Source of the DNA: Candidatus Giovannonibacteria bacterium RIFCSPLOWO2_02_FULL_43_54
GTDB taxonomy: Bacteria; Patescibacteriota; Minisyncoccia; UBA11713; 2-01-FULL-45-33
Direction: 5' to 3'
Assembly (NCBI GenBank): GCA_001778875.1
Contig: MFIK01000018.1
Location: 1 to 33,041 of the forward strand
DNA length: 33,041 bases
Part shown: positions 6,636 to 32,385 of the stretch, in pieces
Position numbering within the stretch: the first letter of the stretch is position 1
Layout of the letters: every line of letters starts with the position of its first letter
Notes under the pieces: model-generated
Told to the model about the DNA's origin: nothing
The model's database searches: none
Seen by the model: the letters and a program-made list of their open reading frames with translations, nothing else
Position numbers and translations under genes: made by a program

Positions 6636-7325
6636 ATGTCAAAGCTATATATAGTGGCAACGCCGATAGGCAATTTGGGCGATATCACATTGCGGGCGAT
6701 AGAAACGCTAAAGTCCGTAGATTTTGTTTTGGCCGAAGACACAAGAGTTACAAAAAAACTGCTTTCGCATTTTGGTATTTTCAAACCGCTGATATCGTTT
6801 CAGGAACACTCATCGCCCAAGATTTTAGAGAAAATCTTGCAGCTGCTTGAGGAAGACAAAGATTTGGCGCTCGTTACGGACGCGGGGACTCCCGGGGTTT
6901 CTGATCCAGGGCAGAGATTAATTCAAGCCATAAGCCTACACGACCGGCAGGCGGGCCATAAGCCATACGTCGCAGAAATAATTACAATCCCCGGCCCATC
7001 GTCGCTTGCCGCAATGATATCGCTTTCCGACATTGATCTGTCAAAATTCACTTTTTTGGGCTTCCCACCGCACAAAAAGGGTCGCGAAAAGTTTTTTACA
7101 AACCTCGCGGCAAGCAGGAACCCGATCATTATTTTTGAATCGCCACATCGCATTTTGAAAACGCTTTCCCAGCTCCGGAAATTCTGCGGCGACCGGCGCG
7201 CGAATATCGGAAGGGAACTTACAAAAACGTACGAAGAAGTTTTTCGCGGCACGCTATCTGAAGCAGAAAAGTATTTTACGGGAGAAAAACAAAGAGGGGA
7301 GTTTGTGATAGTTATAAATATATGA
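6636..7325 (+). CDS. rsmI: 16S rRNA (cytidine1402-2'-O)-methyltransferase
   Basis: Tetrapyrrole-methylase-fold enzyme that modifies C1402 in the decoding centre. MSKLYIVATPIGNLGDITLRA at the N-terminus, LAEDTRVTKKLLSHF, LVTDAGTPGVSDPG and ITIPGPSSLAAMISLS are family motifs; FLGFPPHKKGR follows. Length 229 is a little short of the usual 270-290, mainly at the C-terminus. The segment SLHDRQAGHKPYVAE before the PGPSS motif looks like an insert of about ten residues and is encoded by a repeat-like stretch with a 10-bp direct repeat (6927-6964). Stop overlaps a repeat that carries the rsmE promoter. Confidence 0.93.
   Translation: MSKLYIVATPIGNLGDITLRAIETLKSVDFVLAEDTRVTKKLLSHFGIFKPLISFQEHSSPKILEKILQLLEEDKDLALVTDAGTPGVSDPGQRLIQAISLHDRQAGHKPYVAEIITIPGPSSLAAMISLSDIDLSKFTFLGFPPHKKGREKFFTNLAASRNPIIIFESPHRILKTLSQLRKFCGDRRANIGRELTKTYEEVFRGTLSEAEKYFTGEKQRGEFVIVINI
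6927..6964. repeat. Small insertion with direct repeats in rsmI
   Basis: GCCATAAGCC occurs at 6927-6936 and again at 6955-6964, flanking 18 bases that include CCGGCAGGCGG, half of a CCTGCC-type palindrome like that at 4247. Confidence 0.5.
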
Positions 7326-7419
7326 TGCTAATATGCAAATCAAATGCTAATCTGCGAATTGCGAATGAATTTATTAGCAATTAGCATTATTGGCATAAAA
7401 TTCGCATATTGGCATAATA
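7324..7419. repeat. AT-rich inverted oligomer repeat, copy A
   Basis: Begins GATGCTAATATGC, identical to the start of copy B at 31391. Units of GCTAAT and GCGAATT in the left half are mirrored by ATTAGC, ATTCGC and ATTGGC units in the right half. It supplies the rsmE promoter. Confidence 0.7.
7390..7418 (+). promoter_or_regulatory. Leaderless promoter of rsmE within a repeat
   Basis: TTGGCA (7390-7395), 17 bases, CATAAT (7413-7418) preceded by TGG, five bases before the ATG. Confidence 0.58.
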
Positions 7420-7423
7420 AAGT

Positions 7424-8134
7424 ATGCATCGTTTTTATTTTCCGCAGCAAATAGACAAAGATATTTTGGTTTTGAAAGAAAAGCCGATTTTGCACCATGT
7501 AAAAAATGTTTTGCGTCTAAAGAAAGGCGAGAAGGCCGCGTTTTTCTCGGACAAGGGCGAATACGCGGGGTATGACTTTGTATTTGAGTTAAAAAATATA
7601 GATGGAGGTTCTGCCAACTTCATGTTCAGAGAGCGCGTTGAGAATACGCGCGAGCCATCGCGTAAACTCGTCCTTTTCCAGTCGCTTATTAAAAAAGATA
7701 AATTCGAATGGGTTTTGGAGAAAGCGACGGAAGTTGGGGTTTCTGAAATTGTGCCGGTAATTTCCGCAAGGAGCGAGAAAAAAAGCTTGAATCAGGAAAG
7801 GTGCGAAAAAATATTAAAAGAAGCAGCCGAGCAATCTGGACGGGCTTTCATTCCAAGACTTCATCCGGTAACTAGTTTTGATCGGGCGGTTTCAAAAGTT
7901 CGAGAGCTAGGAACCAAGACCTACTTTACTTCGCTTTCAGAGAAAGAAAATATGATAAGGGGCGTGGGTGACAGAGCAATTAACCTTTTCATAGGTCCCG
8001 AGGGCGGATGGGAAGAGCGTGAGGAATTCGCCGCCCACCACCACCAAAATTTTGAAATTATCTCACTTGGCCGCTTAACCCTCCGCTCCGAAACCGCGGC
8101 TATTGCTGCTTCATATACTCTGCTTTGGGGATAA
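7424..8134 (+). CDS. rsmE: 16S rRNA (uracil1498-N3)-methyltransferase
   Basis: SPOUT-class methyltransferase for U1498. It starts MHRFYFPQQI, continues HHVKNVLRLKKGEKAAFFSD (PUA-like N-terminal domain), then KKDKFEWVLEKATEVGVSEIVPV, KILKEAAEQSGRAFIPRL and the SAM-binding knot LFIGPEGGWEEREEF with LTLRSETAAIAASYTLLW at the end. Length 236 is normal. Follows rsmI, so two 16S modification genes are paired. Confidence 0.95.
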   Translation: MHRFYFPQQIDKDILVLKEKPILHHVKNVLRLKKGEKAAFFSDKGEYAGYDFVFELKNIDGGSANFMFRERVENTREPSRKLVLFQSLIKKDKFEWVLEKATEVGVSEIVPVISARSEKKSLNQERCEKILKEAAEQSGRAFIPRLHPVTSFDRAVSKVRELGTKTYFTSLSEKENMIRGVGDRAINLFIGPEGGWEEREEFAAHHHQNFEIISLGRLTLRSETAAIAASYTLLWG

Positions 8135-10977: not shown

Positions 10978-11340
10978 CACCGGCTTTAGCCGGTGTGTGC
11001 GTTTAAAGCGTAGCGCGTAAGCATCTGCTAAAATCACTTTGGTCGAATTAACAGCCAAAGTGATTTTTCCTTTATGGCCAACAGACGTTTATATCAGTTG
11101 AGCCATTGCACTTACATCTGCGAATACCATGTGGTCTGGACTCCCAAGTACCGCGGAAAAGTGCTGGCCGACAAGTGCATTAAAGAAGAATTCAAGCGTC
11201 TATTCAAGCAGATCTGCGCATGGAAGAGACTTACCATCCGAGCCTGGCACGTTGGAGATGAACACATTCATCTTTACATCTCTATTCCGCCCAAATACTC
11301 CATAGCCTATGCCATTGCAATACTGAAAGGCAAATCATCA
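10978..11340 (+). mobile_element. IS200/IS605-family element, right side missing
   Basis: A subterminal hairpin CACCGGCT/AGCCGGTG (10978-10995) fits an IS200-type left end. A 13-bp inverted repeat (11030-11042 with 11055-11067) lies just before tnpA; in IS200 such a hairpin insulates the transposase from outside transcription. The right end is lost at about 11340. Confidence 0.75.
11074..11340 (+). pseudogene. tnpA: IS200-type Y1 transposase TnpA, truncated
   Basis: 89 residues of TnpA remain: LSHCTYICEYHVVWTPKYRG, then the HUH metal site as HIH in [15 protein letters not shown]. After LKGKSSA the homology ends. The helix with the catalytic tyrosine (near residue 125 in intact TnpA) is absent, so it is inactive. 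The open frame runs on to 11550 antisense to the GIY-YIG gene and is not meaningful there. Confidence 0.87.
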
Positions 11341-11560
11341 GCTTTCGACCAAGCCGTTTCAATTCGGCCTCTCTTGTGCGAGTCTTTTTCAAGGTCGCAA
11401 ATTTTTCGGAATAGCGCAAGACAACGGGTCGGCGGATTTTGGTGTAATGTGCGCCTGACTTCATGGTGTTGTGCGCCTTTAAGCGTTTTTGCAGGTCGTT
11501 CGTTGACCCCACATAGAGCGTCTTATCCGCGCATTCCAAGGTGTATGTAAAAAAAGCCAT
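11282..11560 (-). CDS. GIY-YIG nuclease-domain protein, altered C-terminus
   Basis: Starts [20 protein letters not shown], with TYT and YVG in the places of GIY and YIG, then [11 protein letters not shown] and the catalytic arginine region. [16 protein letters not shown] and [11 protein letters not shown] are typical of the UvrC-like stand-alone family of 80-100 residues. After about residue 70 the protein reads [15 protein letters not shown], which is antisense to the IS200 fragment, so the natural end was replaced. The core nuclease fold is largely present; activity is uncertain. Leaderless promoter: TATAAT (11568-11573, minus) seven bases before the ATG. Confidence 0.8.
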
Positions 11561-28956: not shown

Positions 28957-29439
28957 TCACTTTGTATAAGGTTGGTTTTTATATCCCCTGTGCATTTTAC
29001 TTTTATACAACTTCATTTTTTCTCGAATATTTACTAACTCCTGATGTTGCTTATCGCTGTAATTACGATTATTGTAGATATTTTTAGAAATAAGCTGCGC
29101 CGCCTCTTTCCAAAGGATAAAGTCATTGTATTTCTTAGCTTGTAACTTGTACTTATCAAAAAAAGGTATAATTTTTTCTAATATATCGGTGATATTTTGA
29201 ACATTGAATCGAACCTGATTTTGAGTATATGATATTGTGCCACACCCAACCGTGTGTTTGATTTTTTCTAATATTTCCCTGTCGTCTTCCCGTAGAACTA
29301 TCGCAAAATAAGGCACCCATCTGTGGTAGATTGGCTGGCCCGGTCTGCTATATTTTTTTTCACTTCTATATGTCAGATAAAAACATCCTTCGCCATCAAC
29401 AAATCCTGCAATATAATCGCCTGCTAACTTTTGTTCCAT
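28957..29439 (-). CDS. LAGLIDADG homing endonuclease, free-standing
   Basis: 160 residues from the ATG at 29439. The single LAGLIDADG motif is IAGFVDGEGCF near residues 9-19 with the catalytic acid; FAIVLREDDREILEKIKHTVGCG and FNVQNITDILEKIIPFF are typical of the alpha-beta-beta fold. One motif implies a homodimer. I chose 29439 over 29475 because TGA-TACGAT (extended -10) ends seven bases before it. No intron or intein surrounds it; it lies between the murein block and a divergent nuclease gene. Confidence 0.88.
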   Translation of the reverse strand: MEQKLAGDYIAGFVDGEGCFYLTYRSEKKYSRPGQPIYHRWVPYFAIVLREDDREILEKIKHTVGCGTISYTQNQVRFNVQNITDILEKIIPFFDKYKLQAKKYNDFILWKEAAQLISKNIYNNRNYSDKQHQELVNIREKMKLYKSKMHRGYKNQPYTK

Positions 29440-29509
29440 AATTAATATCGTATCAATTATGTCGCACAAAGACAATGGTCGAATCCTTCTAAAATTCGGT
29501 TTATTTGTA

Positions 29510-31321: not shown

Positions 31322-31390
31322 AATATCGAAAAAATGCCTATTTATGAGACTTTTTAGGATCCGGAATGTGGACTTGATTTTATTAAATAA

Positions 31391-31477
31391 GATGCTAATA
31401 TGCGTATGTTATGCTAATGATGCGAATTGCCAATATTCGCAATTTGTAGATTAGCATGAGATTAGAAGATTAGCATC
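31391..31477. repeat. AT-rich inverted oligomer repeat, copy B
   Basis: Ends GATGCTAAT (31391-31399) and ATTAGCATC (31469-31477) are perfect inverses; internal GCTAAT, GCGAATT and ATTCGC units as in copy A at 7324. It supplies TAGCAT (31471-31476) as a -10 box for rpmA. Confidence 0.72.
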
Positions 31478-31484
31478 ATATTTC

Positions 31485-31757
31485 ATGGCACATACAAAAG
31501 CTGGAGGCTCTACGCAGAATAATAGGGACTCAGGACCAAAATATTTAGGAATAAAGCTTTACGCCGGCGAGAAAGCAAAGCCGGGCTCTATTTTGATACG
31601 CCAGCGCGGGACAAAATTTACGGCCGGAGCCGGAGTAAGGCTCGGTAAAGACGACACCATTTATGCGATACGCGAAGGCGTGGTTAAATTTGAAGTAAAA
31701 AGAAAAACCAAATTCGACGGCTCCAAAAAACACATCAACCAAGTTTCGGTGGTTTAG
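31485..31757 (+). CDS. rpmA: 50S ribosomal protein L27
   Basis: 90 residues, normal length. [20 protein letters not shown] is the conserved N-terminal arm that reaches the peptidyl-transferase centre; [20 protein letters not shown] and [20 protein letters not shown] follow. The family's usual GGGSTRNGRDS reads [12 protein letters not shown]21 (rplU), the common partner, is not adjacent. No Shine-Dalgarno. Confidence 0.96.
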
Positions 31758-31929
31758 GAAAAAACATTTATGAGAACAACCGATGAGCTCTTAAACGGGT
31801 TTTGCGGCTTTTTCAGCATGGTCTCCCGATTCATATCGGGAGTGAAAAAGCCTAGCAACCCTCGGAGTTCGGCGCTGGCCGGACGAGAATGAGTTTAAGA
31901 GCTGTAGCGGTTGGTCGAATGTTTTTTTC
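31758..31929. other. Large three-way-junction inverted structure between rpmA and rplI
   Basis: Fills the space between two convergent ribosomal protein genes. Helices: outer AAAAAACATT (31759-31768) with AATGTTTTTT (31918-31927); CAACCG (31777-31782) with CGGTTG (31908-31913); AGCTCTTAAAC (31786-31796) with GTTTAAGAGCT (31893-31903); GGG, TTGC and GGCTTTTTCA (31797-31815) with TGAAAAAGCC, GCAA and CCC (31843-31861); CTCCCGAT (31823-31830) with ATCGGGAG (31835-31842); GTTCGGC (31867-31873) with GCCGGAC (31878-31884). Could be a bidirectional terminator, a small RNA or a palindromic mobile element. Confidence 0.75.
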
Positions 31930-31932
31930 TTC

Positions 31933-32385
31933 CTATTCCCCTTTAACCTCAATCTTCAATTTGATATCTTCGCCTCCCATGGCGAGTTTTGCTTCGTGGG
32001 AGCCCACGGTTTTTATTGGTTTCTCGATAAATATAGATTTATCATCTAAAGCAGACGGCACGGGAAAATGCAAAGCGCGCAATGCCTCCAGAATTTCTTT
32101 TGGAGAAACTCCGGCATACAGTTCACCATTCTCGTTAGCTTTTTTCTTGATCACTATTCCACGCTCCATAAGTGCCGCGCGGAGCGCGTGAAAATCGCCT
32201 ATTGCTCTTTCCTCCCGCGCTTTTTTGCTTTTCATTTGCTCCTCCAATTGCTTGATGTTCCCTTTGGTCGCAAGCGACGCCAGATTGTTTTTCAGCAAAA
32301 AATTCCGCGCATAGCCGTCGGAAACATCTTTAGACTCCCCCTTTTTCCCGAGTGTATGGATGTCTTTGAGTAATATAACTTTCAT
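31933..32385 (-). CDS. rplI: 50S ribosomal protein L9
   Basis: 150 residues, full length: N-terminal domain [20 protein letters not shown], then [20 protein letters not shown], a long connecting helix, and a C-terminal domain with [23 protein letters not shown]9 is reported missing in part of the CPR, so its presence is a useful lineage marker. No Shine-Dalgarno seen. Convergent with rpmA across the structured region. Confidence 0.96.

Follow-up and report, generated by a model that had tools for sequence, protein, structure and literature searches.

A branched palindrome between rpmA and rplI of a Giovannonibacteria genome belongs to a dispersed, probably mobile repeat family

A large branched palindrome separates rpmA and rplI

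The stretch of DNA analysed here (33,041 nucleotides of Candidatus Giovannonibacteria bacterium RIFCSPLOWO2_02_FULL_43_54, hereafter the window) carries at 31758-31929 a gap flanked by the convergent genes rpmA (bL27) and rplI (bL9), as assigned by Pfam. The initial annotation, made from the letters alone, had proposed that a 172-base three-way-junction structure fills this gap, and folding bore this out. The + strand of 31758-31929 folded at -79.1 kcal/mol compared with -45.7 +/- 4.0 for shuffled sequences (z -8.30), with 0 of 200 shuffles folding as well, and the - strand folded at -68.8 kcal/mol (z -8.69), again equalled by no shuffle. The outer A/T stem, the perfect 11-bp stem and, in arm 1, the one-sided 7-nt bulge (AGCAUGG) and the 8-bp hairpin cap that had been described were all present in the computed fold. 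The GC-rich arm 2 was also found, but its supposed 10 continuous base pairs resolved into 7 bp, an internal loop and 2 bp. The locus is organized as follows:

31485..31757, + strand: rpmA (bL27), convergent neighbour (Pfam PF01016, E 4e-30)
31758..31929, + strand: whole palindromic element (fold z -8.3; model core 31774-31914)
31758..31784, + strand: 5′ arm of the outer stem, an A-run plus a copy-specific stem, pairing with 31904-31928
31786..31797, + strand: 5′ half of the inner 11-bp stem (model helices 1 and 2, both covarying), from the fold
31798..31861, + strand: arm 1, with lower helices, a one-sided bulge holding a conserved GGCAUGGU-like motif, and an apical 8-bp hairpin, from the fold and alignments
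31861..31893, + strand: arm 2, conserved CTCGGAG-stem-GCTG-stem-CGAGAATGAG, near-invariant among copies
31892..31903, + strand: 3′ half of the inner 11-bp stem, from the fold
31904..31929, + strand: 3′ arm of the outer stem, with a T-run at its end, from the sequence and fold
31933..32385, - strand: rplI (bL9), convergent neighbour (Pfam PF01281/PF03948)

Elsewhere, the window holds an IS200-like Y1 transposase gene at 11074-11343 (+ strand) whose Pfam match covers only positions 1-78 of 121 and which is probably truncated, and a truncated trmD-like open reading frame at 1280-2184 that runs into the remnant of an opposite-strand IS110-type transposase (Pfam DEDD_Tnp_IS110). A free-standing LAGLIDADG endonuclease gene with no obvious host intron occupies 28957-29475 on the - strand (Pfam E 1e-24). 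Around 7320-7430 and 31390-31480, inverted ATGCTAAT/ATTAGCAT motifs lie in two AT-rich stretches just upstream of genes that possibly represent another repeat family.

The core covaries, whereas the outer stems are copy specific

A covariance model (R1) of 139 positions was built from 14 copies of the element; it matched the window copy at 126.6 bits (E 1.3e-31), a score obtained with the window sequence in the training set. The core common to the copies is a three-way junction in which two arms stand on the 11-bp stem. Arm 1 carries the one-sided bulge GGCAUGGU, with the motif GGC(A/G)(U/C)GGU, and arm 2 follows the consensus CUCGGAG-stem-GCUG-stem-CGAGAAUGAG. Checking the structure against other genomic copies with a covariance model, as had been suggested at the outset, revealed very strong covariation of this core. 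Among 65 distinct copies, two-sided changes were found at 36 of 38 pairs, including every pair of the 5′ side of the inner stem, 93% of paired cells were standard pairs, and 525 cells held two-sided changes compared with 158 in shuffles. The covariation score was 0.533, as against 0.175 when shuffled, and it never exceeded 0.088 once the pairings were slid; the 65-copy alignment was fitted to the structure and all of these figures thus lean towards it, although the margin is very large. The model strand was also the better folding strand in 60 of 63 copies, and the G-T pairs of the outer stems numbered 129 versus 85 by strand. This preference is a mild sign that the folded form of one strand matters.

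The outer stems behave differently. The 5′ outer arm of the window copy is unrelated in sequence to the outer stems of most other copies, and the outer 16 bases show 32% identity between copies compared with 30% in shuffles. The two outer arms of the same copy nevertheless pair with a mean of -28.4 kcal/mol, compared with -8.6 when arms are exchanged between copies, and a copy's own arm was its best pairing partner in 46 of 57 cases. Within one genus (G102 and G036) the outer stems are alike (GAYTTAYGCG...), so they are fast-diverging, still complementary terminal repeats and not unrelated host hairpins. Either selection on folding or palindrome-correcting mutation may keep the arms complementary. 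The idea that the outer stems derive from a terminator palindrome already in place before insertion was unsupported at atpG, grx, map, mfd and virB4, whose orthologous sites in the (diverged) relatives compared hold no such palindrome. A hammerhead-like reading of CUGAUGA, found in some outer stems, was discarded on inspection because the GAAA partner is out of place.

Copies are dispersed and patchily distributed

A DNA search located another copy in the window's own genome (C8:950-1047) and copies in relatives at unrelated places, a dispersal that the initial annotation missed because other genomes are needed to see it. R1 matched 22 of 112 related genomes, with 1-17 copies per genome, and 7 of 380 genomes spread across the phylum. 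The family thus occurs in Parcubacteria and, beyond them, in some less closely related genomes of the phylum, and the same core is present in about 20 independent genomes. Of nine further genomes in the same family, three lack the element altogether. Its length is about 90-170 nt, a shorter form of ~90-100 nt being dominant in G043 and G321; one copy in G036 (L191, G036:C19) has an inverted second arm 2 and matches the model on both strands.

The arm 2 pattern was present in 11 of 19 genomes, where a reversed control pattern gave 0 matches, and no solo arm 2 was detected apart from full copies in these 19 genomes, so no longer version was seen. Nor did this search reveal an autonomous parent element with a single arm at another location. 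No family of Rfam 15 matched the window element, nor any of 13 copies at a lenient threshold, which rules out a known RNA family. The element was absent from the phages and plasmids searched; some IMG/VR contigs matched a core 15-mer, but the covariance model found no element there and these matches are therefore due to chance. A literature search, outside which most subscription journals and preprints lay, returned no prior description of palindromic repeats or structured RNAs of this kind in CPR/Parcubacteria, and the family is apparently undescribed so far.

Marker genes put the window close to Candidatus Giovannonibacteria, and the rpmA-rplI gap of locus L032 is the same as that of genome G005. 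The rpmA-rplI site itself was compared in the nine other same-family genomes. None carries a full element there, so among the genomes examined the full element at this site is specific to the window's species. One species of the same genus has an A/T-rich gap without a hairpin. In a second same-genus species, a palindrome of 100 nt carrying A- and T-runs gave a weak model match (20.3 bits; E 0.001, the search being a small one) and may be a short remnant of the element. In the remaining seven the gap is practically missing or holds just a short simple hairpin. An orthologous, conserved regulatory RNA of rpmA or rplI is ruled out, as the relatives do not have the element. The initial annotation had held that absent covariation, together with simple terminators at this place in relatives, would speak against its proposal; the outcome is mixed: the covariation is strong, but relatives carry no full element at rpmA-rplI.

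Most copies lie behind stop codons and a few inside genes

Placement is strongly polar. Only 3 of 56 intergenic copies lie between divergent genes, and a stop codon is found within 45 nt in 34 of 40 cases on the 3′ side of the model strand, compared with 10 of 30 on the other side (Fisher p 1.4e-5). At most of the G102 and G036 sites read, the element begins ~0-11 bases past the stop codon of the upstream gene. The window copy lies directly downstream of the rplI stop codon, oriented as these placement statistics show the family to prefer. One copy is situated inside an operon, between atpG and atpD. At none of the ten orthologous intergenic sites compared did G102 and G036 both carry the element, and two of the ten showed other large palindromes at the same spot. 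Such palindromes begin at the stop codon after sufB in G036 (L235) and after the c13 gene in G102 (L248), both sites being orthologous to element-bearing sites in the sister genome. The miaA copies and the copies neighbouring rplS are vertically inherited, so part of the family is old.

In-frame copies within genes account for 6 of 62 copies at 4 independent sites:

miaA: in-frame copy at the same site in three species
uvrC: in-frame copy in a linker of variable length
Elp3-like radical SAM/acetyltransferase gene: in-frame copy on the opposite strand
membrane glycosyltransferase gene: in-frame copy

The UvrC linker that holds the insertion contains different palindromes in other species. Palindromic in-frame inserts of the AACCCCTACCCAGCC...GGTTAGGGGTTA type were observed in variable UvrC loops of G000 (L213) and G008 (L220), and another palindromic in-frame insert in that of G001 (L216), which suggests that in-frame palindromes are common in the same family of bacteria. 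Separately, a second, unrelated dispersed repeat of ~45 codons (e.g., SANHASPQIHAYSPSGELLFSRRRAAKGI) lies in frame in many open reading frames of G000, G001 and G002, on either strand; examples include residues ~396-442 of the G002 uvrC product (L212), miaA (L222/L223) and further open reading frames.

A probable mobile repeat explains the data best

We consider the window element to be one copy of a non-coding, probably mobile palindromic repeat family, with a probability of roughly 0.7. A palindromic mobile element was among the options raised by the initial annotation and is the best supported of them. Insertion and spread are suggested by the dispersal of the copies, their patchiness and the fact that orthologous sites are not shared. 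The folded single strand, whether DNA or RNA, would be the substrate recognized and moved by a putative enzyme, and insertions would survive where they are least harmful, either just past a stop codon or within a flexible loop of a protein. With an A-run and a T-run in its outer stem, the window copy may also terminate transcription of rpmA and rplI as a hairpin.

As for the enzyme, Y1 transposases (PF01797) are common in these genomes generally and missing from several element-rich ones: none was found in G102 (17 copies), G043 (9 copies), G036 (4 copies), G091 (4 copies), G045 or G016, all incomplete MAGs. Mobilization by Y1/RAYT is unsupported, given this absence from element-rich genomes. 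No target-site duplication or precise empty site was legible, the compared relatives being too diverged. We tentatively raise the possibility of a new class of mobile element that would be recognized by its branched single-strand shape and moved by an enzyme not related to Y1, with freely diversifying complementary termini and insertion aimed behind stop codons.

A functional structured RNA, acting as a 3′-UTR element or small RNA and dispersed because it is useful, is an unlikely alternative. Such an RNA would act behind stop codons by stabilizing mRNA or slowing trailing ribosomes, with a protein recognizing the three-way junction. It would account for the very strong covariation, the conserved unpaired loop motifs, the tight and polar position behind stop codons, the copy kept within the atpG-atpD operon and the mild strand preference. 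However, orthologous genes lack conserved copies, the host genes are unrelated to each other, most relatives do not have the element, some copies lie in frame within proteins, and mRNA in the preferred orientation bears the less well folding strand. The initial suggestion of an undescribed structured RNA agrees in part with the data, namely with the missing Rfam match and the strong covariation, but a DNA hairpin or palindrome-correcting mutation could produce the same covariation.

It is quite improbable that the element arose at the rpmA-rplI site as an unusually large intrinsic terminator acting in both directions. The convergent position and the terminal A- and T-runs suit both directions, and a same-genus species has its smaller A/T-run palindrome at the same place; in the computed fold, the A/T runs of the window copy are paired within the outer stem. 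On the other hand, homologous copies are dispersed, most members of the bacterial family have no gap or hairpin at rpmA-rplI, and a consensus terminator scan returned nothing at the element. A T-run is present on one strand in 27 of 63 copies and on the other in 19 of 63, and runs of at least 5 on both sides occur in only 14 of 63. These latter counts and the copy inside the atpG-atpD operon make a terminator unfit as an explanation for the family. Judging from its ends, it is plausible that the window copy terminates transcription both ways, and to this extent the earlier proposal of a bidirectional terminator stands, but it does not extend to the family.

Chance or an assembly artefact, for which nothing but the MAG origin of the data speaks, has a negligible probability, since no shuffle folds as well and the core is shared by about 20 independent genomes, whose independent copies already refute it.

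Comparison with known systems

Parcubacteria have tiny, gene-poor genomes in which the persistence of selfish DNA is not expected. A repeat spreading behind stop codons and inside proteins in several lineages would be a parallel to Rickettsia in another phylum of reduced genomes, and the family would serve as a marker of genome dynamics in uncultured bacteria. What enzyme mobilizes a branched hairpin would become a question in its own right, and because the outer stems are specific to each copy yet complementary, the part that structure plays in mobility can be tested directly.

The element shares with intrinsic (bidirectional) terminators an A-run/T-run hairpin between convergent genes in the window, but is far larger and branched, with conserved motifs and dispersed homologues, one also within an operon. 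Like MITEs, it is short, non-coding and dispersed, with terminal inverted repeats (seen as own-arm complementarity). In contrast to MITEs, these terminal repeats vary by copy yet stay complementary, and neither a target duplication nor a parent transposase was identified for the element.

The resemblance to REPs and BIMEs is closer in placement, as the element is palindromic, extragenic, located just behind stop codons and rare between divergent genes; in E. coli, REPs no more than 15 nt from a stop codon affect translation (PMC12306157). REPs are 20-40 bp hairpins marked by a GTAG or CGTC tag (PMC3733652), as a rule in >100 copies per genome (PMC2817692), whereas the element spans ~90-170 nt, shows no invariant GTAG/CGTC tag columns (alignments A1 and A2) and reaches at most 17 copies per genome, and its element-rich genomes are without a detectable Y1 transposase (RAYT).

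The element works most like the Rickettsia palindromic elements (RPEs), which are ~150 bp long, palindromic and dispersed, form multiple families and occupy both intergenic positions and in-frame positions at tolerant places in genes (PMC10969869). By this description, rather than by sequence comparison, the likeness lies in size, palindromy, dispersal and the combination of in-frame and intergenic copies, with a minority of copies inserted in frame in unrelated genes (uvrC, miaA, Elp3-like and glycosyltransferase). The differences are that in-gene copies are few here (only 6 of 62, at 4 independent sites), that the conserved part is a covarying structured core rather than a peptide, that the outer stems are copy specific and that the host phylum is another. 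Taken together, the element is best read as a member of a new family of mobile palindromic repeats, and an RNA function is the chief alternative.
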